NCBI GenBank assembly: GCA_014801945.1
Contig: JAAVDF010000030.1
Location: forward strand, 16,933 to 71,959
Origin: Bacteroides sp.
GTDB lineage: Bacteria > Bacteroidota > Bacteroidia > Bacteroidales > Muribaculaceae
Length of the DNA stretch: 55,027 nt
Reading direction: 5' to 3'
Position 1 is the stretch's first letter, and every line of letters begins with the position of its first letter. The notes below the pieces were generated by a model that had not been told where the DNA came from, ran no database searches, and worked only from the letters and a program-made list of their open reading frames with translations. Of this stretch, positions 28,429 to 44,144 are shown piece by piece. A program made the position numbers and the translations under genes.

Positions 28429-29811
28429 TTATTTTCTCGGCACGGACACATCGGTCACTGAGCCAGCCTTCCATTCGGCTATATCGACGTTCACAAGCAC
28501 CCGGTCACTGATGATCGGGTCACCGGGCTTGGGATCACGGGGATCACGGATTCCGACACCGTCGGAGTAGTTGAGGGTGTATGTATAGACGTAGCCCGGT
28601 TTCCACTGGTCGCCTATCGGGAGAGCGGCCCATCCGAACGCCTTTACTTCGGCGGAATTGGCCGCAAGGTCATACTTTGACGTAAAGGTGGCATCGGTGA
28701 AGTATTCGTCACCATTCTTGTAAAGACGAGTCCGGATGGTCTTATTCGTATCCTTATCGACGGCGAAATAGATCACCTCCATACCGTCGGCATTGTCGGT
28801 GTAGGGATAGACGAGTTTTCCATCATCGTATGGAGTCCTATCGGTCACTCTTAGCAGTACGCTGAAATACATTCCGTCAGCGTTATTCTCGCCATTCGCG
28901 GCATTATCCTTGTAGCTCCATGCGGGATTGGCTGAAGGGATAAGCATGGCCGAGTTGTCATAGCCGGTTTCTCCTCCGACTTTGCTACCCATTATTGATA
29001 CAGCCTTGTCGGATGAAAGCGGTGACCCTTCTGACTTATCGAGCATAACGATATTATCGCCGCTACGGTAGATGTAATCCACACTTCCTTTTGCGACGGC
29101 CTCCCAGCTGCCGGCTTTTGAAGCATCGTCGGTATCATTCCCTGATATAAAGCTGAACACACCCTGCGTTGCGACTCCACCGAGCCTTACACCTGCAATC
29201 TCCACATCGTAGCTTTTGGAATTACCCCATGCTTTGAGTTCGATGCGGCTCAACTGATGATGGAAGTCAAGAGTGATACCCTCCTCTTCGTCGTCAAGCA
29301 GCTTTCCATAGGCTATTGCGGTGATGAAATCGATTTGCGATGCGATGTCGTTTGCGACGCGGAAACCGGAGAGTTTGTATTCGTCCGAAGCCATAGTTTC
29401 ACCCTTGACAAGTGACGGAATGGTAAAATCGGTCTCACTGAACCCTCCAGCCTGACGCATGTCCTCACACGAGGGTGCGAATGCTACGAATCTCAGACGA
29501 TCATCATTGTTGGGCCAGTAGCATTCCGGATCGTAGGACAGGAACTTGCCGGTGACACTTTTGCTGAACGTCTTGTAGAGAAAATATGGGCTGACAGAAG
29601 ATGATGTTACCGTGAAACTTGAGACACAGAAGTTCTCAAGAGTCGAACCAGTCACCTCGGTTGCGCGTGAAGAGACTTCGGGGAGCGAAGCACTGAATGC
29701 AATTCTTCCGGCTTCCGGACCGTTGTCCGAACCTCCGATCTCCTCCTGCGAACATGAGGATGAAAGCATGAGGATACTGAGGAGTGAATATGTCAGTCTG
29801 TACTTAGTCAT
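28429..29811 (-). CDS. Fimbrillin family lipoprotein (fourth paralogue)
   Basis: A 460-residue fimbrillin (Mfa1/FimA-like) subunit of a type V pilus. The lipobox SSSC gives Cys20, followed by SQEE, a surface-export-like sequence. Arg49 in VSSRAT sits where related prepilins are cut by a trypsin-like protease. The conserved middle part reads DFHHQLSRIELKAWG and VEIAGVRLGGV, and the C-terminal part YTLNYSDGVGIRDPRDPKPG then VNVDIAEW, matching the paralogues. Last gene of the six-gene operon, 30 bp after the third fimbrillin. Tip, shaft or anchor position in the pilus is unknown. Confidence 0.88.
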   Translation of the reverse strand: MTKYRLTYSLLSILMLSSSCSQEEIGGSDNGPEAGRIAFSASLPEVSSRATEVTGSTLENFCVSSFTVTSSSVSPYFLYKTFSKSVTGKFLSYDPECYWPNNDDRLRFVAFAPSCEDMRQAGGFSETDFTIPSLVKGETMASDEYKLSGFRVANDIASQIDFITAIAYGKLLDDEEEGITLDFHHQLSRIELKAWGNSKSYDVEIAGVRLGGVATQGVFSFISGNDTDDASKAGSWEAVAKGSVDYIYRSGDNIVMLDKSEGSPLSSDKAVSIMGSKVGGETGYDNSAMLIPSANPAWSYKDNAANGENNADGMYFSVLLRVTDRTPYDDGKLVYPYTDNADGMEVIYFAVDKDTNKTIRTRLYKNGDEYFTDATFTSKYDLAANSAEVKAFGWAALPIGDQWKPGYVYTYTLNYSDGVGIRDPRDPKPGDPIISDRVLVNVDIAEWKAGSVTDVSVPRK

Positions 29812-29841: not shown

Positions 29842-31233
29842 TTATCTTTTGGGGACGTTTAAGTCCGATTCATAGTCATCGGCCGGAGTCCATTCCGCTA
29901 CGTTGACTGTAAACGGAATCTTACCTCTTTCGAGGATCGGGTCTCCGGGTTTGGGATCGTCAGGATCATGCCAGCCGATACCGTCCGAATAATTGAGCTT
30001 GTAGGTGTAGATCTTTCCTGCCTCCCATTTTGCAGCGACGGGAAGCGCGGCCCAGCCGAAACCGCGGATCTCCTCGGTGTCAGTCGGTGTATATTTGCTG
30101 TCGTCGCTCTTTTCTGATGAGGTATAGTAAGTTCCATCAATCTTATAGAGCCTTTTATTTATCTTGCCACTGTTGTCAACGGCAAGATAGATGACAGTCA
30201 TGTTGTCGCGGTCGTTGGGATAGGGGTATGCGATTTCATTCTCCTTATTCTTCACTCTCAGCAGAACGCTGAAATACATTTTATCGGTAGAGTAGGGGGT
30301 GGTTGCGGTAGCGGGATCGCTTTTTCCCTCCCAAGCCTCGATTTTTGCCGACATAGGGATCACCATGGCAGGGCCGGCAGTGCCCATGATGGAAACTGCA
30401 TCATCCTCCGACGCGTGGCTCTCCGCTGTCTTGCTGAGGAGCAGGATTGTCTCTCCACTTGAGAATATATGCTCTACGGATGCCTGATGGCCTGTCGTGT
30501 TGAGCCATGTCTGAGCATCTCCCTTGGGAGTTGACAATGCCGACAGATTGAAATCGCCTTCCACAAACGGATTACCGATACGCACACCGGCTATCTCAAA
30601 ATCGTATTTCTCATTCGCACTCCAAGCCGAGAGCTCTATGCGCGCCAACTGATGCTTGAAGTCAAGCGAAATGCCTGTGTTGGCATTCTCCAAGAGCGAA
30701 CCGGAAGAGTAGGCTGTGAGAAAATCCACTTGTTTTGCTATTTCTGTATTTACCTTGAACTTTTCGAGCTTATAGTCAAGGACTGCAGTTGTGTCAGTCA
30801 GTTTAGATGTATTGATAAGGTTGAAGAAATTCTCGCCTGATAATTTCTTCATGCTGTCGATGGCGGGATAGTAGGCGAAAAAGTGCAGTTTGCTTTTTGA
30901 GTCGGGCCACATGCACTTGTTGTCGCCTTGTGACAGGAAGCGGCCATTAGCATCCTTCTCAAAGCGGACATCCGTGAAAAACGGAGTAATCGCGCTTGTG
31001 GAGGAATCTATCAACGCAGTGTCTTCAGGATTGAAACACGTTACCTGACAGAAATTGAAATTGTCCGATGAGACCACTCCGGCGCGTGACTGTGTGACGG
31101 TAGGGAGATAGGTGCGGAAATAAATCCGTGTGCCGTCACCGGAGAGCTCACTCCTTGCCGGTTCATCCTGCGAACATGAGGTGAACATGAACAAAGTACC
31201 GAGAGCGAAATATGTCAGTTTTCTATTAATCAT
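29842..31233 (-). CDS. Fimbrillin family lipoprotein (third paralogue)
   Basis: A 463-residue fimbrillin with lipobox FTSC (Cys20) and SQDE, and a putative processing Arg50 in VTQSRAG. It shares DFKHQLARIELSAWS, FEIAGVRIGN, GWAALPVAAKW and YKLNYSDGIGWHDPDDPKPG with its neighbours. Sequence outside these blocks differs strongly from the other three, as expected for exposed subunits under diversifying selection. The 103-bp gap upstream has no clear promoter. Confidence 0.88.
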   Translation of the reverse strand: MINRKLTYFALGTLFMFTSCSQDEPARSELSGDGTRIYFRTYLPTVTQSRAGVVSSDNFNFCQVTCFNPEDTALIDSSTSAITPFFTDVRFEKDANGRFLSQGDNKCMWPDSKSKLHFFAYYPAIDSMKKLSGENFFNLINTSKLTDTTAVLDYKLEKFKVNTEIAKQVDFLTAYSSGSLLENANTGISLDFKHQLARIELSAWSANEKYDFEIAGVRIGNPFVEGDFNLSALSTPKGDAQTWLNTTGHQASVEHIFSSGETILLLSKTAESHASEDDAVSIMGTAGPAMVIPMSAKIEAWEGKSDPATATTPYSTDKMYFSVLLRVKNKENEIAYPYPNDRDNMTVIYLAVDNSGKINKRLYKIDGTYYTSSEKSDDSKYTPTDTEEIRGFGWAALPVAAKWEAGKIYTYKLNYSDGIGWHDPDDPKPGDPILERGKIPFTVNVAEWTPADDYESDLNVPKR

Positions 31234-31336: not shown

Positions 31337-32779
31337 TTAAGGGACAACCACATCCGGATCATAATCTTCATTTTTGGAGGCATATTCCCAGCGATCCACG
31401 CTTACGCCCCATGAAATGGTGGATTTTCCTCCGATTGGTTTACCCGGTTCGGGATCGTCAGGATCATGCAGGCCGATACCATCCGAATAATTCAGGGTAT
31501 AGACATATCGTTTTCCTGCATTCCAGTCGGCATCGACAGGCACAGCAGCCCATCCGAAATCCTTTATTTCTTCCCCTTCGGCTGCTATATATGGTTTCTG
31601 ACGATAGGGATCTGTAAAGAACGAGCCTTCTGTCTCACCGGGATATAGACGTGTGATGATCTCTCCTGAATGATCGACGGCATAATAAATGACAATCATA
31701 TTATATGGATTGTCGGGATAAGGATAGATCTTGTAACCGGATAAATCTGTAACCCTCAGAAGAATGCTGAAATACATTTTATCGGTGGTGTATGGGATGG
31801 TGGCTATGTCCGGATCAGCAAGACCTTCCCATTTCGGACTGGATGTCGGGATGACCATCGCGCAGCCTCCGAGACCCATGATGGACGCAGCCGATGCAAG
31901 GGAATTATGCTCGGAGTGGTTTATATTGAAGATCCTGTCACCTGATGCCGGAACAGTTTCAGATGCCGGAACTCCGCGGTAAAGATATTCCACCTTATCC
32001 TTGACGACGTCACCGGCATTCATCCAACATCCTGAAGAAGCCGCTGACGTTGCGTCGGAGAACACAAATGTATCTTCAACGACAGGGTTGCCCAGACGTA
32101 CGCCTGCGATCTCGAAATTATAGGCCATACCTGACCCCCAAGCCTTCAGCTCCACTTGGCTCATCTGATGACTGAAAGCAAGTTCGACACCGTTGTTGAA
32201 ATCCTTCCATCTTTCGCCGGATGCTTCGGCCGTTACAAAGTCAAATTGGCGGGAGATATCATTGTTGACACGCACGATTCCGAGCCGGTAATCGACAGCT
32301 GTGGTGGAATTGATCTCGGTAGTGCTATTGATAAGGTTGAAATACTTATAGCTGTTTGAGTCGGAGAGATAGGAATTGTCTGTCGCCATGACAGCACGCG
32401 AAGGAGAGAATGCGAAAAATTTGAGCAGGCCGCCGCCTTCAGGCCAGTCTCGCGGACCTTCGTCAGGAGATGACACATAGGTCACGCCGGCTGATGGTGT
32501 GACTCTGCGGATAAACGTAGCATCTTCGAAATAAGGGCTGATAAACCCTGCCGCATTTGTCTTGATATCACCTGTATTAAAGCATGTGACCTGAAAGGAT
32601 TCAAGATTGTCAAGCGTCATATCCTCGGCCCTTGAGGGGGCGACATCTGAGAGAGAAGTCTTGAAGTAGATCTTATCTCTCATCCAGCTATAGCCATCCG
32701 GCTCTGCTTCCTCCTTTGAACAGGAGGAAGCAGAGAGGACTGCTACAAGTGCAAAATATGTCACTTTTATTATCTTCAT
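31337..32779 (-). CDS. Fimbrillin family lipoprotein (second paralogue)
   Basis: A 480-residue fimbrillin with lipobox SASSC (Cys20) followed by SKEEAE. Putative processing Arg50 lies in VAPSRAE. Shared blocks are AFSHQMSQVELKAWG, FEIAGVRLGNPV, FGWAAVPVDADW and YTLNYSDGIGLHDPDDPEPG. It sits 56 bp after the first fimbrillin in the operon. It is likely exported to the outer membrane as a lipidated prepilin, cleaved after the arginine and polymerised by donor-strand exchange, by analogy with type V pili. Confidence 0.88.
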   Translation of the reverse strand: MKIIKVTYFALVAVLSASSCSKEEAEPDGYSWMRDKIYFKTSLSDVAPSRAEDMTLDNLESFQVTCFNTGDIKTNAAGFISPYFEDATFIRRVTPSAGVTYVSSPDEGPRDWPEGGGLLKFFAFSPSRAVMATDNSYLSDSNSYKYFNLINSTTEINSTTAVDYRLGIVRVNNDISRQFDFVTAEASGERWKDFNNGVELAFSHQMSQVELKAWGSGMAYNFEIAGVRLGNPVVEDTFVFSDATSAASSGCWMNAGDVVKDKVEYLYRGVPASETVPASGDRIFNINHSEHNSLASAASIMGLGGCAMVIPTSSPKWEGLADPDIATIPYTTDKMYFSILLRVTDLSGYKIYPYPDNPYNMIVIYYAVDHSGEIITRLYPGETEGSFFTDPYRQKPYIAAEGEEIKDFGWAAVPVDADWNAGKRYVYTLNYSDGIGLHDPDDPEPGKPIGGKSTISWGVSVDRWEYASKNEDYDPDVVVP

Positions 32780-32835: not shown

Positions 32836-34362
32836 TTATTCCTTCGGAACGGTAGTACTGATATTCTGCTCGTCCCAGTTCACGACTGATACGGAGAATG
32901 TGATACCTGAACCGATAATGGGAGTACCGGGTTTGGGATCTTCCGGATCCTGAATGCCCACGCCGTGAGAGAAGTCAAGGGTATAGATGTATTTCTTACC
33001 ACGCTCCCAGTTGACACCTACAGGTACTGAGGCCCAACCGAATTCAACGATTTCGTTATTAGCCCCTACAGTAGCTGTCTTAGAGGGTACGCGCCCGATG
33101 ACCTTGTTTGAATTCTTCTCTTTCTCAAGATAGACCACATTCATGGTGGTGTTATTACCGTAGGGATAAATCTGCGGGGTGTTGACTTCAGAGGCTTCCG
33201 GTTTCAAGGTTACACGGAGAAGGATACTGAAGTACATGTCACCTTCAAGATTGTCGGCACTCCAAGGTTTCGGGTCTTTGCCATCAGAAGCTGCGCTGTA
33301 CTTGGGAGCGATCCAAGGATTCTCTTCGCCGGCCCATGCACCGTTTTTGGTGGGGAGCACCATTGCATTGCCACCCTTACCCATGATCGTGAGGGCGGTA
33401 GCTGCGGTAGTGTGTGCAGGAGTGGTGACTACCTGACCGCCGCTAAGGTTGTTGAAGACACCCATACGGTAGATTTCATCGCCCTCACCGTAGATATACT
33501 CTACCGGGAGTCGCTGAGGATCTTTTGAGATGCCCCATTGGCCGCCTTCGGGATTGCTTACGTTTCCGTCGGCATCACAGAAGTTGAAGATGGCAGAACC
33601 GGTATAGGGACGACCGAGTCTCACACCTGCAATCTCGATATTGAAATCCTTGTTATTTGAGAATGCTCTGAGCTCAACGTTTGAAAGCTGATGTCTGAAT
33701 TTGAGTTCGACACCTAACTTAGCGTCATCTTCACTCTTGGGAGTGGGTGCTGCGATGTGGGCTGTGATGAAGTCAACCTGCTTGGAGATATCGGTAGCCA
33801 CATAGAAGCGTCCGAGTTTGAAACCCTTATAGAGCTGGACATCTTTGAATGTGGAGTTCTGCTGACCCATAGGATCGAGAGGCACATTATCCTGACACAG
33901 GTTGAAGAATTGGATGCCCTGAGTGTAGTTCGCGAGAAGGGTGGAATAATTTTCTGCTGACTGGTCAAGTTGAGTCATGGCGGCAGACTGGATCTCATCA
34001 AGAGAAGGAGCGTAAGCGAAGAATTCCACTTGTTCGGCTACTTCCTGCGAGGGCCATTTCTGGTTACTGGTACTTGCATAGATATTTGCTCCCATCTGGT
34101 AGAATGGTTCATCCCAGAAGAGTGAGTCGGGTAGTTCTCCGTTGACGGCTTTGTGGTTGTTGGGATAAGCTGTCACGTAGAATGTCGCCGGATTAGTGGT
34201 GTAATCGAGAGCCGGATTAACACGGCTTGACACCCCGGCACGGAATGAGATGGGCAAACCATCTCCATCATTGCTCGGTTTAACCGTAGGCACTTCTTCT
34301 TGTGAGCAAGAGGCAAGAACTATAAGGCCACTTGCGATTGCGGTTAAAGAAAGTTTGTTCAT
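32836..34362 (-). CDS. Fimbrillin family lipoprotein (first paralogue)
   Basis: A 508-residue fimbrillin, the longest of the four. The lipobox LASC gives Cys19, followed by SQEEV. Arg47 in GVSSRVN is at the processing position. Shared blocks are KFRHQLSNVELRAFS, IEIAGVRLGRPY, FGWASVPVGVNWERGKKYIY and DFSHGVGIQDPEDPKPG. Insertions in the middle (residues about 120-190 and 310-380) explain the extra length. It is the gene nearest the DUF5119 gene and might be the main subunit, but nothing in the sequence proves this. Confidence 0.88.
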   Translation of the reverse strand: MNKLSLTAIASGLIVLASCSQEEVPTVKPSNDGDGLPISFRAGVSSRVNPALDYTTNPATFYVTAYPNNHKAVNGELPDSLFWDEPFYQMGANIYASTSNQKWPSQEVAEQVEFFAYAPSLDEIQSAAMTQLDQSAENYSTLLANYTQGIQFFNLCQDNVPLDPMGQQNSTFKDVQLYKGFKLGRFYVATDISKQVDFITAHIAAPTPKSEDDAKLGVELKFRHQLSNVELRAFSNNKDFNIEIAGVRLGRPYTGSAIFNFCDADGNVSNPEGGQWGISKDPQRLPVEYIYGEGDEIYRMGVFNNLSGGQVVTTPAHTTAATALTIMGKGGNAMVLPTKNGAWAGEENPWIAPKYSAASDGKDPKPWSADNLEGDMYFSILLRVTLKPEASEVNTPQIYPYGNNTTMNVVYLEKEKNSNKVIGRVPSKTATVGANNEIVEFGWASVPVGVNWERGKKYIYTLDFSHGVGIQDPEDPKPGTPIIGSGITFSVSVVNWDEQNISTTVPKE

Positions 34363-34422: not shown

Positions 34423-35400
34423 TCATACTTGGATATCGAAATAGTAGGTTTCCCAACTGTCGATCTCTATGCTCACTCCGCCTTCGGGAGGTGTGACCGG
34501 CTCGTCAGGAAGTTCAGGCAATTTGAGTCCGTATAGCTTGATGCTGACATTACGCGGATCGGGTGCTTGGTTCACCTGATCTGTCACATCGAAGGTGTAG
34601 AAGTTACCCGTTCGGTTTTTCAGAGCTATGTAGAGACTTATTTTGTGAGGACGTTCAGGACCTGCAGGAAGGCCAAACGTAAGGAATTCGGAACTCAGGG
34701 TTTTCAGTTCATCGTCAGCGGTAAGGGTGAATGTGTGTGATACGGCTTCCGATGTGGCCGACATCCTGCCCGGATAGTAGCCGCCCGCCAGCGACGATAT
34801 GGTAGCGTCGATACGGGTGTCGGCGTTCTGGAGATTTTCCACATCCACGAATTCCACCGAATAATGGCAGACGAGTTCTTCGGGATAGAAGGTCACCGTC
34901 TGCTGATGACTCGAAACCTTTAGCTCGATCTCACTATTCTGAGCACCGTATATCATGGTCGGGGTGATGCGTAACGGTTCATCTTCCGTACCCTCCGCGC
35001 GTGGAATGCTTGTCGTGGAGATTCCCTGACCGAGGAGGACCGACGTATTGTCAGTGTAGATCTCTATCTCATTATGTGAATGCTGGTTGCGCAGATAGTG
35101 GACGTAAGGATCATCATTGCTGTGACACACGGCGGTATGCTTGCCCGCGTATGATGTGATCAGGCCACCGTTACGGTTATTGAACCAATAGTTCATCACG
35201 TCGTGTTCCTCAGGGTAAAGGTACAGGTTCATGGACGAGACCTGTGTGTCAGGTGCCTTGCTCCAGTCAAACACCACCTCGACTTTTTCGGCGATAGTGG
35301 TTGGCGCGTCATCATTGAGATCCTTCTGGGTGCATCCTTCTGTCAGCATGAACATGCCGCCCAACAGCAGTGCCGAAGTTTTAAAGATGTATGGTTTCAT
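34423..35400 (-). CDS. DUF5119 lipoprotein of the pilus operon
   Basis: A 325-residue lipoprotein with lipobox TEGC (Cys23) followed by TQKDLNDD. It belongs to the DUF5119 family, commonly found in fimbrillin operons, where Mfa2/FimB-like lipoproteins anchor and limit pilus length. Core features are VEVVFDWSKAP, a phrase with SSMNLYLYP, and a proline-rich C-terminal linker (LPELPDEPVTPPEGG) before the last strand. An anchor role is inference from position and family. It overlaps the upstream OmpA/DUF3575 gene by 4 nt. Confidence 0.82.
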   Translation of the reverse strand: MKPYIFKTSALLLGGMFMLTEGCTQKDLNDDAPTTIAEKVEVVFDWSKAPDTQVSSMNLYLYPEEHDVMNYWFNNRNGGLITSYAGKHTAVCHSNDDPYVHYLRNQHSHNEIEIYTDNTSVLLGQGISTTSIPRAEGTEDEPLRITPTMIYGAQNSEIELKVSSHQQTVTFYPEELVCHYSVEFVDVENLQNADTRIDATISSLAGGYYPGRMSATSEAVSHTFTLTADDELKTLSSEFLTFGLPAGPERPHKISLYIALKNRTGNFYTFDVTDQVNQAPDPRNVSIKLYGLKLPELPDEPVTPPEGGVSIEIDSWETYYFDIQV

Positions 35401-36779
35401 CGGTCACCTCCTTTCCTGATGTTGGTGTTTCCGCGTCCTAAGAGCCAAACGAGTGAGATTTCGGCCTTTGTCGGCCCGAAAAATCGCATCTTGTATTCTT
35501 TCTTGCGGTAATAATCGTTGTCAAACGGGAAATACTTTATGTAATTTCCACCCAGATAACCTAATCCTATCGAGAAGTCTATGTTGAGGTGTTTGCTTAT
35601 GGGGAGAGAGTAGCCATACTCGATTCCTGAGTTCACGAGACAGCGGTCCCAGAGTGTTCCGCCGGGCTGGCCTCCCATATATCCTGTACCACCCCACTCG
35701 AAGTCGAATGTAAGCACTCCGCAATACACACCTATGTGATGTCCCGTGAGAGGTTTTTCGGCTGCCTTGTGTCCGAACCACCATCTTGCACCGAGTTCAC
35801 CTCCATAGATGCGCCAGTAGCGGTGGCGCGAATTGCTGTCCCACCACCCGTACATCCAGTTGGCAAGCACGGAGAAACGTTTACCTAAGTAGAACTCTGC
35901 ACCGATATTGGGGACTGCTGCTATGTCGAAGAGCATATTGCTGCGGAGATCCATATAGAAAGGCTTCTTCGTCACAGCTCCGATTTCGATCGGACTTGCG
36001 GCTGTTTCTGCTGTCACAGTGTCATCGACAAGTGCTTCTTCGATCTCAATGACGGTTGGTTTTGGTGATGGAGGATCTATCTCCCGATGGATGCTCTTTT
36101 CATACTCCACATAGAGATATGAGTAGCGCAGTGCGGGAAAGAGCTGACGATACATGTAAGCGTAAGGGACACCGTCTTTCAGCGTTTTGATGCGGTTGAG
36201 CAGTGTGTTGCTTTCAGTTGTGGAGAGAGCGGAGGCGGTGACTGCCGGTTGCAGCAGTGCGAGCACCTCGTTCCGTGAAGGAACGTCACTGTCGGAAGTA
36301 ACCAGATTGTATAGTCCTCTCCAGTTTCGTCCGAGATACTCGAAATCGGTTATCGAATCCGGAAGTGTGATGTGTCTGGCGAAATAATCGAACAGGGCAT
36401 GGGCACGTTGCTCTGAGAGTTGGCGGTCGATCGCTTCCGATCCCTCAGGCGAGGCTGAACCTATGATCCGCAGGGTGCTGATGACAAATGTGGAATCCTG
36501 ACCGGATACCTTTTGCAGTTGATGGATCAGGTTATCGAGTCGTTCGCCATTACCGTCAAGACCGAGATCGAGACTGGATTGCGACAGGTGGAAGTGTATT
36601 TCTGTGGAGTCGGTGGCAATTTCCCTGTCTGAAGTAGAGGGTATAACGGGGCTGGCAGCCGAACCAATGACCGCCATAAGTAGCACAATAAAACAAGTCA
36701 ATCCTCGTAGTAGATTGGTATTCAGATCGTTACCGCCTAAATGGGGGGGGGTAAAACGACGAGGTGTTGTAGCTGTCAT
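35397..36779 (-). CDS. OmpA-like/DUF3575 outer membrane protein heading the pilus operon
   Basis: A 460-residue protein. The N-terminal half contains an OmpA-like stretch (LRIIGSASPEGSEAIDRQLS, SEQRAHALFDYFARH) that could contact peptidoglycan. The C-terminal half is a DUF3575-type beta-barrel (NIGAEFYLGKRFSVLANWMY, GYSLPISKHLNIDFSIGLGY). The usual order in such operons is barrel, DUF5119, then fimbrillins. Codons 10-13 contain a run of nine C residues (plus-strand G9 at 36743-36751). With eight or ten C the frame meets a stop within about five codons. A TTG farther down (before TCFIVLL) could be an alternative start that would place the tract in the leader. Confidence 0.8.
   Translation of the reverse strand: MTATTPRRFTPPHLGGNDLNTNLLRGLTCFIVLLMAVIGSAASPVIPSTSDREIATDSTEIHFHLSQSSLDLGLDGNGERLDNLIHQLQKVSGQDSTFVISTLRIIGSASPEGSEAIDRQLSEQRAHALFDYFARHITLPDSITDFEYLGRNWRGLYNLVTSDSDVPSRNEVLALLQPAVTASALSTTESNTLLNRIKTLKDGVPYAYMYRQLFPALRYSYLYVEYEKSIHREIDPPSPKPTVIEIEEALVDDTVTAETAASPIEIGAVTKKPFYMDLRSNMLFDIAAVPNIGAEFYLGKRFSVLANWMYGWWDSNSRHRYWRIYGGELGARWWFGHKAAEKPLTGHHIGVYCGVLTFDFEWGGTGYMGGQPGGTLWDRCLVNSGIEYGYSLPISKHLNIDFSIGLGYLGGNYIKYFPFDNDYYRKKEYKMRFFGPTKAEISLVWLLGRGNTNIRKGGDR
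36743..36751 (-). repeat. C9 homopolymer in the first pilus-operon gene
   Basis: Nine consecutive C on the coding strand spanning codons ACC CCC CCC CAT. This is a classic slipped-strand mispairing site. C8 yields TAG and C10 yields TAA almost at once, so the gene would be off in both altered states. Confidence 0.85.
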
Positions 36780-36895
36780 ACGGCGCGGACATAGATTAGT
36801 TAAAATTTTACTACCAAAGTAGGATAATAGTTGGTTTAGAGATAGTTAATCGGATAAAACAATGGTTAGATTTAATAAATCAGGGGAGAATACGA

Positions 36896-36973
36896 TTAGC
36901 CCATGATCAGATGAGAAATTAGGTTATGACCCGGTGTTATATAGTGATTTGATAGACCATAATTGTCCTTCAT
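36896..36973 (-). other. Possible 25-codon leader ORF of the pilus operon
   Basis: An ATG at 36973 preceded by GGAGAA opens a 25-codon frame ending in TAA at 36896, inside the predicted long leader. It could be a leader peptide that tunes expression, or chance. There are no homologues I can name. Confidence 0.25.
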
Positions 36974-37012
36974 TTCTCCGGAAAGAGGTATTTGATTCTT
37001 CTTAATTATATG

Positions 37013-37044
37013 CAAAGTTAGCTATTTATATGATTAATTGCAAA
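37013..37044 (-). promoter_or_regulatory. Promoter of the pilus operon
   Basis: TTTG (37041-37044), exactly 20 nt, then TAACTTTG (37013-37020) on the minus strand. The predicted start near 37006 leaves a leader of about 227 nt before the OmpA/DUF3575 ATG. The rest of 37045-37218 shows no supportable gene. Confidence 0.8.
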
Positions 37045-37214
37045 ATAAATCTAAAAAAAGTAGGATGAAAAAAATAAAAAGATCGGTAAAATAATAATCG
37101 TACTTAAAGTGGATAAAGGTTGTAACGATGCTTTTAGGCGTAAAAAGATTCATAGTGGTGCCCCACTGTTGGATTTGTGTTCTGTATGGATTGAGAATGG
37201 GTGACTGTGTCAAA

Positions 37215-37262
37215 ATTCAAACGGCTGTAGGGCCAGCACTTGTGCAGGCTCTACAGCCGTTT
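37215..37262 (-). terminator. Terminator of the ilv operon
   Basis: A 12-bp perfect outer stem (37219-37230 with 37251-37262) with an inner hairpin (GCAC/GTGC) is followed on the minus strand by TTTGAATTTTG. It lies 88 bp after the ilvC stop. Confidence 0.75.
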
Positions 37263-37349
37263 ATTAATTCGATGCGGCCTCTTGAGGCGGCTGTGCCGTC
37301 TGGCGGAGTCGGCAAAGAATCTATCTGCCCTTATTGGTAGGGCTGCTTA

Positions 37350-38393
37350 TTATGCGTTTTCGGGACGGAGAGTGCGGACAGTTGCACCTGCACGCCACAT
37401 CTCGCTCTCGCGGAGTGCCTTGAGTTCTTCCTCAAGCTTTTCACGGTAGTCGGGCTGAGTATTGGAGTCGATCGAACGCTGAGCCTCGTTACCGCTCTTC
37501 ACGCTCTCGTAGAGCTGATAAACGACGGGCTTGATGGCATCATGGAACGGGCCCATCCAGTCGAGCGCGCCGCGCTGTGCGGTGGTCGAGCAGTTTGCAT
37601 ACATCCAGTCCATACCCTTTGCTGCGAAGAGGGGCATGAGTGACTGGGTGAGTTCCTCTACGGTCTCGTTGAATGCTTCGGAGGGAGTGTGGCCGTTTTC
37701 ACGGAGCACTTCATACTGTGCGAGGAGCAGACCTTGGATCGCACCCATGAGCGAACCGCGCTCGCCGGTGAGGTCGCTGACTGCTTCGCGCTGGAAAGTG
37801 GTCTCGAAGAGATAGCCTGAACCGATGCCGATACCGAGGGCGAGTGTACGTTCGAGCGCACGGCCGGTTGCGTCCTGATATACTGCGAAGCTTGAGTTTG
37901 TTCCCTTACCCTCCTTGAAGAGGATGCGGAGCATTGTGCCTGAACCCTTGGGGGCAACCATGATCACATCGACATCAGCAGGGGGGACAACGCCTGTGCG
38001 GTCGCTCCAGTTGATGGCGAAACCGTGGCTGAAATAGAGAGCCTTGCCGGGGGTGAGGTGCTTCTTGATCGTGGGCCACTGTGAGATCACGGCGGCATCA
38101 CTGAGCAGACACATGATGACTGTGCCACGCTTGCAGGCTTCCTCGATTGAGAACAGAGTCTCGCCGGGAACCCAGCCGTCGGCCACTGCCTTGTCGTAAG
38201 TCTTGCCTTCGCGCTGACCGACGATCACGTTGAAACCGTTGTCACGGAGGTCGAGACCCTGACCGGGACCCTGAACACCATAACCGATTACGGCGATGGT
38301 TTCATCTTTGAGTACTTCGCGGGCTTTTTCGAGGGGGAATTCTTCGCGGGTGATGACGGTTTCTTCAACGCCACCGAAATTTAATTTTGCCAT
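37350..38393 (-). CDS. ilvC: Ketol-acid reductoisomerase
   Basis: A 347-residue class I enzyme that converts acetolactate or acetohydroxybutyrate to the dihydroxy acids of valine and isoleucine synthesis with NADPH and Mg2+. The N-terminal Rossmann motif reads VIGYGVQGPGQGLDLRDNG (near residue 35). The knotted C-terminal domain includes DLTGERGSLMGAIQG near 220 and NCSTTAQRGALDW, which carry metal and substrate residues. It is the last gene of the operon, 83 bp after the thioesterase gene. Confidence 0.96.
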   Translation of the reverse strand: MAKLNFGGVEETVITREEFPLEKAREVLKDETIAVIGYGVQGPGQGLDLRDNGFNVIVGQREGKTYDKAVADGWVPGETLFSIEEACKRGTVIMCLLSDAAVISQWPTIKKHLTPGKALYFSHGFAINWSDRTGVVPPADVDVIMVAPKGSGTMLRILFKEGKGTNSSFAVYQDATGRALERTLALGIGIGSGYLFETTFQREAVSDLTGERGSLMGAIQGLLLAQYEVLRENGHTPSEAFNETVEELTQSLMPLFAAKGMDWMYANCSTTAQRGALDWMGPFHDAIKPVVYQLYESVKSGNEAQRSIDSNTQPDYREKLEEELKALRESEMWRAGATVRTLRPENA

Positions 38394-43630: not shown

Positions 43631-43632
43631 TG

Positions 43633-43704
43633 TAGCCCATAGGAGAATCGAACTCCTCTTTCAAGAATGAAAATCTTGCGTCCTAGCCGATAGACGAATG
43701 GGCC
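43633..43704 (-). tRNA. tRNA-Glu (TTC), downstream copy
   Basis: The cloverleaf has anticodon loop TTTTCAT between CAAGA and TCTTG, giving anticodon TTC. The acceptor GGCCCAT pairs with ATGGGCT, and the T arm is GGAGT-TCGATT-CTCC-like. It is identical in sequence to the copy at 44057-44128. Confidence 0.95.
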
Positions 43705-43755
43705 ATTCCTTAACCAAGATAGCTTGTCGGAAAAATCTTCAAGAAGCCTTCCGTA

Positions 43756-44013: not shown

Positions 44014-44056
44014 CGGTTAATTTTAATGTCTTTTGTTCTTGATTAAGTCTTGTTTG

Positions 44057-44128
44057 TAGCCCATAGGAGAATCGAACTCCTCTTTCAAGAATGAAAATCT
44101 TGCGTCCTAGCCGATAGACGAATGGGCC
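44057..44128 (-). tRNA. tRNA-Glu (TTC), upstream copy
   Basis: Sequence is identical to the copy at 43633-43704; the anticodon is TTC. It is first in the tRNA-Glu/rpsT/tRNA-Glu unit, 17 nt after the promoter -7 box. Confidence 0.95.
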
Positions 44129-44144
44129 TTCCCAAAAGCGATTG

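Follow-up and report, generated by a model that had tools for sequence, protein, structure and literature searches.

A run of nine C near the start of the first gene of a fimbrillin operon raises the question of whether changes in its length switch the operon between expression states, or whether the run is of no consequence for the cell. The locus was examined within the window, i.e., the whole stretch of DNA that was analysed (55,027 nt), and in related genomes. We give a probability of roughly 0.6 to the tract being a homopolymer contingency locus with two nested start codons, placed at the 5' end of the gene that opens a type V pilus-type operon. Its frames are best read as two readable states and an off state.

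Gene content of the operon

Six genes lie on one strand (Table 1), and the six-gene fimbrillin operon described in the sequence-only reading was recovered by Pfam, which finds a DUF3575 gene, a DUF5119 gene and four Mfa_like_1 genes; the 4-nt overlap between gene 1 and the DUF5119 gene (ATGA) is also there. The DUF5119 gene and the four Mfa_like_1 genes bring fimbrillin- and anchor-type genes together, as expected of a type V pilus operon. From spacing and strand we infer that genes 1-6 are co-transcribed. The N-terminal half of gene 1 is weakly OmpA-like, its NCBIfam matches being far below cut-off, and inspection by eye revealed lipobox-like N-termini with Cys among the translations of the operon, as well as ilvC, ilvD and others among its upstream neighbours.

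Table 1. Coordinates of the operon genes, start codons, leader and tract in the window.
Feature	Position	Strand	Remarks
Gene 1, signal-peptide-like N-terminus, C-terminal DUF3575	35397..36779	-	DUF3575 at residues 276-447 (Pfam)
Gene 2, DUF5119	34423..35400	-	start overlaps the stop of gene 1 (Pfam)
Gene 3, fimbrillin-like (Mfa_like_1)	32836..34362	-	Pfam
Gene 4, fimbrillin-like (Mfa_like_1)	31337..32779	-	Pfam
Gene 5, fimbrillin-like (Mfa_like_1)	29842..31233	-	Pfam
Gene 6, fimbrillin-like (Mfa_like_1)	28429..29811	-	Pfam
ATG1, conserved upstream start codon	36790..36792	-	13 nt upstream of ATG2, in another frame
ATG2, start used in the sequence-only reading	36777..36779	-	in frame with C9
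AT-rich leader upstream of ATG1	36793..36849	-	CTTTGGTAGTAAAA.TTTAACTAATCT common to a 76%-identical relative (alignment)
C9 homopolymer tract	36743..36751	-	G9 on the + strand; context TTTTA-CCCCCCCCC-ATTTAG
TAA ending the ATG1 frame when the tract is C9	36730..36732	-	

A GGAGGT motif is located shortly upstream of the DUF5119 ATG (35406-35411, minus strand), and its GGAGG core is kept in all five close orthologues (GGAGGT in four of them and GGAGGC in L003). It may be due to a coding constraint (KGG), or it may be a Shine-Dalgarno-like signal; such signals are rarely used in the host group. The motif might permit independent initiation of gene 2, which would weaken polarity. Elsewhere in the window, two near-identical copies that look by eye like tRNA-Glu genes occupy positions 43632-43709 and 44056-44132; the small ORF between them resembles ribosomal protein S20 (by eye), and the arrangement is also present in the related genome G018.

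Reading frames across the tract

Counted from ATG2, the tract makes up codons 10-13 (ACC CCC CCC CAT), just as the sequence-only reading had it, of an ORF that encodes 460 aa, so that a G/C tract exceeding the length of about 7 taken as the minimum for a homopolymer switch stands in the 5' coding region. The frame arithmetic given there for ATG2 is likewise right: loss of one C makes the following codons ATT TAG, and with one C gained a TAA comes four codons later. The further claim that either single slip cuts the protein short is not supported, as that reading worked from ATG2 and overlooked ATG1. Loss of one C need not destroy the protein, because C8 joins the gene to this conserved upstream start, as in the natural allele L107. 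In the window, C9 joins the gene to ATG2, while the ATG1 frame reads MSAPYDSYNTSSFYPPPFRR and then meets a stop; in the remaining phase (C7 or C10), the gene is out of reach of both ATGs. A change of a single unit shifts the reading frame, two of the three phases reaching the gene and one not. The tract is intragenic, and no -7 box follows it.

Six alleles share a common 5' end (the window, L107, L108, L109, L110, and L003). ATG1 is present in all of them, ATG2 in five and both in five, so at least two start codons in different frames precede the tract. The ATG1 frame is the best conserved of the three, with a mean pairwise BLOSUM score of 35.4 vs 22.2 and 18.2 (five distinct sequences, 39 nt), and its pairwise differences number 29, 20 and 50 at codon positions 1, 2, and 3, respectively; the conserved N-terminal peptide is MS..YD....(T/S)SF. 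As the stretch is short, this conservation supports ATG1 as the older start without proving it. The AT-rich leader belongs to ATG1, whereas ATG2 is preceded by a GC-rich stretch, and for this reason we expect C8 to be the more strongly translated allele. RNA folding of the leader was no better than that of shuffled sequences (z 0.25).

Positions 36600-37400 were searched for inverted repeats, and no pair around the leader was strong or conserved. The region holds a terminator-like hairpin and two weak inverted pairs (13 nt, 85%, and 11 nt, 91%). The 13-nt pair spans the leader, but it was not found at the same locus in L107 and L108, which carry a different AT-rich inverted pair of 76-81%; an invertible promoter was therefore set aside as unlikely.

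Length alleles in related genomes

The comparison covered 21 related loci from GTDB 220 contigs, in metagenome-assembled genomes (MAGs) titled Bacteroides sp., Muribaculaceae, Porphyromonadaceae, Bacteroidales, Barnesiella, and Butyricimonas. Tract length is not constant among orthologues: C6, C7, C8, C9 and an interrupted tract were found. All these alleles come from assemblies, in which homopolymer length can be wrong. L107 and L108 come from two strains binned together in MAG G018 (JAAVCM) and occupy the same locus; L107 has C8 and is open from ATG1, and L108 has C9 and is open from ATG2. L110 (C6) and L003 (interrupted tract) are open from ATG1. In L109 (C7), the downstream frame is reached by neither ATG, yet it is intact for 472 codons.

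The two versions, on contigs C21 and C30 of G018, are collinear over at least 36.7 kb; therefore, this 'genome' is a strain mixture. The collinear region falls into two blocks, one of 27.8 kb with 194 single-nucleotide polymorphisms (SNPs) and one of 9.0 kb with 73 (positions with N excluded), a divergence of about 0.7%. C8 and C9 thus occur as a strain-level polymorphism, as seen in assemblies and in two strains of one species. Two further G-run indels between these strains, near 1201 and near 8152 of C21, were not used as evidence; the former is at the margin of a 217-218-codon ORF that has no known role, and no clear gene was found at the latter.

After the tract, dN/dS is 0.11-0.24 in 8 of 15 pairs of alleles, with dS above 2 in two of the eight and saturated in the other seven pairs. 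These values indicate that the gene body is under purifying selection. The computable pairs of the out-of-frame L109 give 0.24 and 0.14, so that its gene is not decaying. From the proposed on/off switch, variation in length between strains and orthologues, together with an allele out of frame from both starts, is retained; the plain alternation of on and off gives way to two readable states and one unreadable state.

Proposed mechanism

Replication slippage, presumably acting within clones, would change the number of C residues. With C8, gene 1 would be translated from ATG1, probably in the strong state, given the conserved leader and the conserved N-terminal peptide of this start. With C9, it would be translated from ATG2, in a weaker or differently processed state, and with C7 or C10 it would be reached from neither ATG and be off. 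Unequal use of the two starts would then make expression differ between alleles. Where gene 1 is untranslated, genes 2-6 would probably be lowered through coupling at ATGA, possibly also through Rho polarity, with a presumed effect on the pilus; GGAGG before gene 2 may soften this polarity. It is equally conceivable that the nested pair of start codons masks slippage.

Chance, tolerance and recurrence in the genus

It is rather unlikely that the tract is a tolerated accident, i.e., a mutation-prone run that drifts in length unselected and without function. Since the two ATGs cover two of the three frames, most single slips would stay readable, and C8 and C9 are indeed both readable. The run is also not needed for the gene: no C/G run of at least 6 was found at the coding start in any of the 15 more distant homologues listed, whose N-termini differ. 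One of these homologues, L121, carries runs of C7 and C6 at 131-197 nt ahead of the match, and no tract was found in L125, which has a shorter N-terminal part.

Nor does rarity speak for a function. A first-order model of 55 kb expects 0.07 C9 and 0.11 G9 runs or longer, about 0.18 together; in the window, the C/G runs next in length are a single run of 7 and two runs of 6. The 2.6-Mb genome (79% complete) contains seven C/G runs of at least 8, four of them of at least 9, which is no excess over the model and agrees with an accident. All four runs of at least 9 are preceded by TTA. One is in this pilus gene, one in the 5' part of a TonB-plug (SusC-like) gene, one 123 nt before the first ATG of a TonB-plug (SusC-like) gene, and the fourth (L037) is intergenic, where an ORF that by eye is outer-membrane-receptor-like has its first ATG 201 nt away. 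The C9 run is unusual, not extraordinary, and its length alone is weak evidence. The argument from rarity was abandoned, as the first-order model does not make C9 rare; the case consequently rests on position, length variation, and recurrence across the genus.

This recurrence would not be favoured if the tract were purely neutral. Across 27 genomes of the genus, TTACCCCCCCC was counted 149 times and its mirror image 26 times. A TTA-C8 or longer tract is found at most 1.5 kb upstream in 16 of 67 DUF3575 places, with 0.21 expected from density, and in 13 of 64 when the three seed loci that led to the search are left out; within 1.5 kb downstream, none of the 67 has one. The DUF3575-linked tracts are located partly in leaders or promoters, partly in the coding start. 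At two other DUF3575 loci (L133 and L134), a C9 run without the TTA pattern lies shortly upstream.

The second point against an accident is that surface genes broken in frame at a tract and otherwise open recur in the genus. In a pilus-type gene of G042 (L232), G8 in the signal-peptide region coincides with a frame break between the signal peptide and the remainder, which is open for 401 codons. Five SusC-like genes are out of frame at the tract with an upstream signal-peptide-like start: L157, L198, L195 and L192 were detected by script (L157 and L198 being called SusC-like by eye), and L040, which fell below the hydrophobicity threshold of the script, by alignment; another SusC-like gene, L182, is in frame. 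L040 (G10, G000:C34:43903-43912) and L192 (G8, G018:C20:73119) are related SusC-like genes with the run at the same 5' coding position. Some of the genomes may be long-read assemblies, so that these frame breaks carry a risk of homopolymer error.

Besides pilus genes, SusC-like, surface-polysaccharide and phage-tail-like genes have such tracts. For a broader view, 146 of the 149 sites were examined (one was not fetched, and sites with identical flanks were dropped). Of these, 45 lie inside ORFs according to a simple caller, 13 of them within 150 nt of the start vs 8.5 expected, a weak excess. Pfam was run on 30 of the 44 ORFs with tracts outside the window. Sixteen comprise four acyltransferase-3 proteins (one below cut-off), three glycosyltransferases, four TonB-plug receptors and one each of EpsG, cytidylyltransferase, hexapeptide transferase, DUF1919, and a sulfatase-fold protein. 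Seven others are an OPT transporter, FecR, a hybrid sensor, an InlB-repeat protein, an M6 peptidase, DUF6056, and a fusion of sigma-70 regions with a beta-barrel. The remaining seven, L169 and six phage-like proteins, have no Pfam match; tail or host-range families of PHROG were matched by six of seven phage-like proteins. Among neighbouring phage-tail-like genes (L102, L149, and L209), G8-G9 runs come after a GGRNLL-type motif, which makes these genes candidates for tail-protein variation.

Assembly errors and other explanations

Assembly or sequencing errors in MAGs are an improbable source of the length differences. Homopolymers are error-prone, annotated G-tract lengths can be wrong according to the available text of one report (PMC9187656), and the C9 contig of G018 has many N, 388 in the 40 kb compared, none of them within 80 nt of the tract. 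One probable artefact was met and its length difference set aside: in G008:C2, the 2.5-kb copies L150 and L151 differ by seven gap openings, including C9 vs C10, and by no mismatches. The G018 strains present another picture, with real SNPs around the tract. Of the 15 gap openings in their two blocks, none but the tract falls in the segment of contig C21 from 11.1 to 27.1 kb, about 15.9 kb that contain the whole operon. Moreover, the orthologues span C6 to C9, and five of the six alleles fit one of the two starts.

We regard it as quite improbable that translation starts downstream of the tract, which would then belong to a 5' untranslated leader and have little effect. An in-frame TTG and a later ATG do follow the tract in the window, and the gene of L109 is intact with neither ATG1 nor ATG2 in frame. 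Against this stand the conservation, as protein, of the ATG1 frame before the tract and the position of the first in-frame ATG downstream, which in the window and in L107/L108 falls, by eye, within the hydrophobic stretch of the signal peptide, so that a start there would lose the signal.

Finally, long homopolymers can in principle cause RNA polymerase to slip, and mixed mRNAs, from which any DNA allele would yield some full-length protein, would make the C run a buffer instead of a switch, but known cases are mostly A/T runs, and we consider this very improbable.

G runs in promoters

Besides the intragenic tracts, the 146 sites include two promoter architectures. In 24 sites, read on the G strand, a TAnnTTTG box follows the G run at 18-20 nt (at exactly 19 nt in 19 of them), and in these sites TTAAC begins 19 nt ahead of the run 16 times and 9 nt ahead of it 14 times. 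In a second class of 27 sites, the box is at 11-15 nt, given also as 12-13 nt. In the opposite direction, six boxes were found in the 146 sites, and these were unclustered. The pattern of repeats plus four G occurs at 25 places in 15 of the 27 genomes vs none in mirror controls, with G runs of 4 to 9, most commonly 8 (11 of 25). The conserved architecture can be described as direct TTAAC repeats, then the G run followed by TAA, then TAnnTTTG as the -7 box (e.g., L079, L081, L085, L144, L175, and L248-L272), and such promoters precede secreted-protein, SusC-like and pilus genes. The G run in them may be a tunable spacer. TTA-C8 as a universal switch marker was rejected as too simple, because 24 and 27 of the 146 sites belong to these two architectures; the window tract is in neither.

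A wider reading, which we put forward tentatively and consider on balance doubtful, is that the genus runs a repertoire of C/G-tract switches with an intragenic and a promoter class, the window operon being a two-start, three-state member. The former would comprise frame-switched pili, SusC receptors, surface-polysaccharide enzymes and phage tail proteins, and the latter G6-10 at fixed distances between TTAAC direct repeats and a -7 box, where slippage would tune the spacing between regulator and RNA polymerase.

Comparison with known systems

The lic2A gene of Haemophilus influenzae, a lipooligosaccharide (LOS) gene, carries a tetranucleotide repeat, whereas here a C run stands in a pilus operon. 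Several initiation codons in different frames with different translation rates are reported for lic2A (Dixon et al., 2007, cited in PMC4235727), and, as far as that citing text describes it, the likeness to the window consists in a repeat at the 5' end, more than one upstream start codon in different frames, and a potential for several expression levels.

In Bifidobacterium breve UCC2003, sortase-dependent pili (bbr_0113 and bbr_1889) are switched by an intragenic G tract (PMC9187656). According to the available text of that report, here too a gut commensal has a G/C tract in the first gene of a pilus cluster, the joining of ORFs depends on tract length, and downstream polarity is proposed; other tracts in promoter spacers are mentioned. 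B. breve differs in phylum and in pilus type, no second start codon is described in that text, and its length mixtures were measured by deep sequencing (PMC9187656), while the window tract is known from assemblies.

Surface genes of Bacteroidales, including fimbrillin-family genes near invertons, undergo phase variation through invertible elements, as stated in the accessible parts of two papers (PMC12632263, PMC11892184). Variation of fimbriae and surface molecules is common to these systems and to our reading of the window; however, invertons are driven by recombinases, and the window leader has no strong or conserved inverted-repeat pair. The poly-G promoter of porA in Neisseria meningitidis, in which the length of the G tract is tied to expression of a surface protein, is relevant to the promoter-type tracts of the genus, but the window tract is intragenic with no -7 box behind it (PMC3639595, as far as its available text goes). 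In B. fragilis, slippage was suggested for an acetyltransferase gene with an extra C (excerpt of PMC3090145). Neither for a Bacteroidales pilus operon nor for Muribaculaceae was a homopolymer switch found in the parts of the open-access literature that were accessible, which is weak evidence of absence. The class of mechanism is known; the host group and the pilus type would be new, as far as this literature shows.

Biological implications

The tract is probably a slippage switch of the sort already known from other bacteria, as its length differs between close relatives and changes the usable start codon. Its state would be readable directly from deep metagenomes by counting tract lengths. 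If the switch is real, gene callers may misplace the starts of such genes, and some surface genes scored as broken in MAGs would be intact genes in the off phase. A repertoire in the genus, if true, would mean slippage switches in bacteria described mainly as using DNA inversion. For gut Bacteroidales, a switch at this locus, together with kindred ones in other surface genes, would constitute a second, recombinase-free route to heterogeneity of the cell surface.
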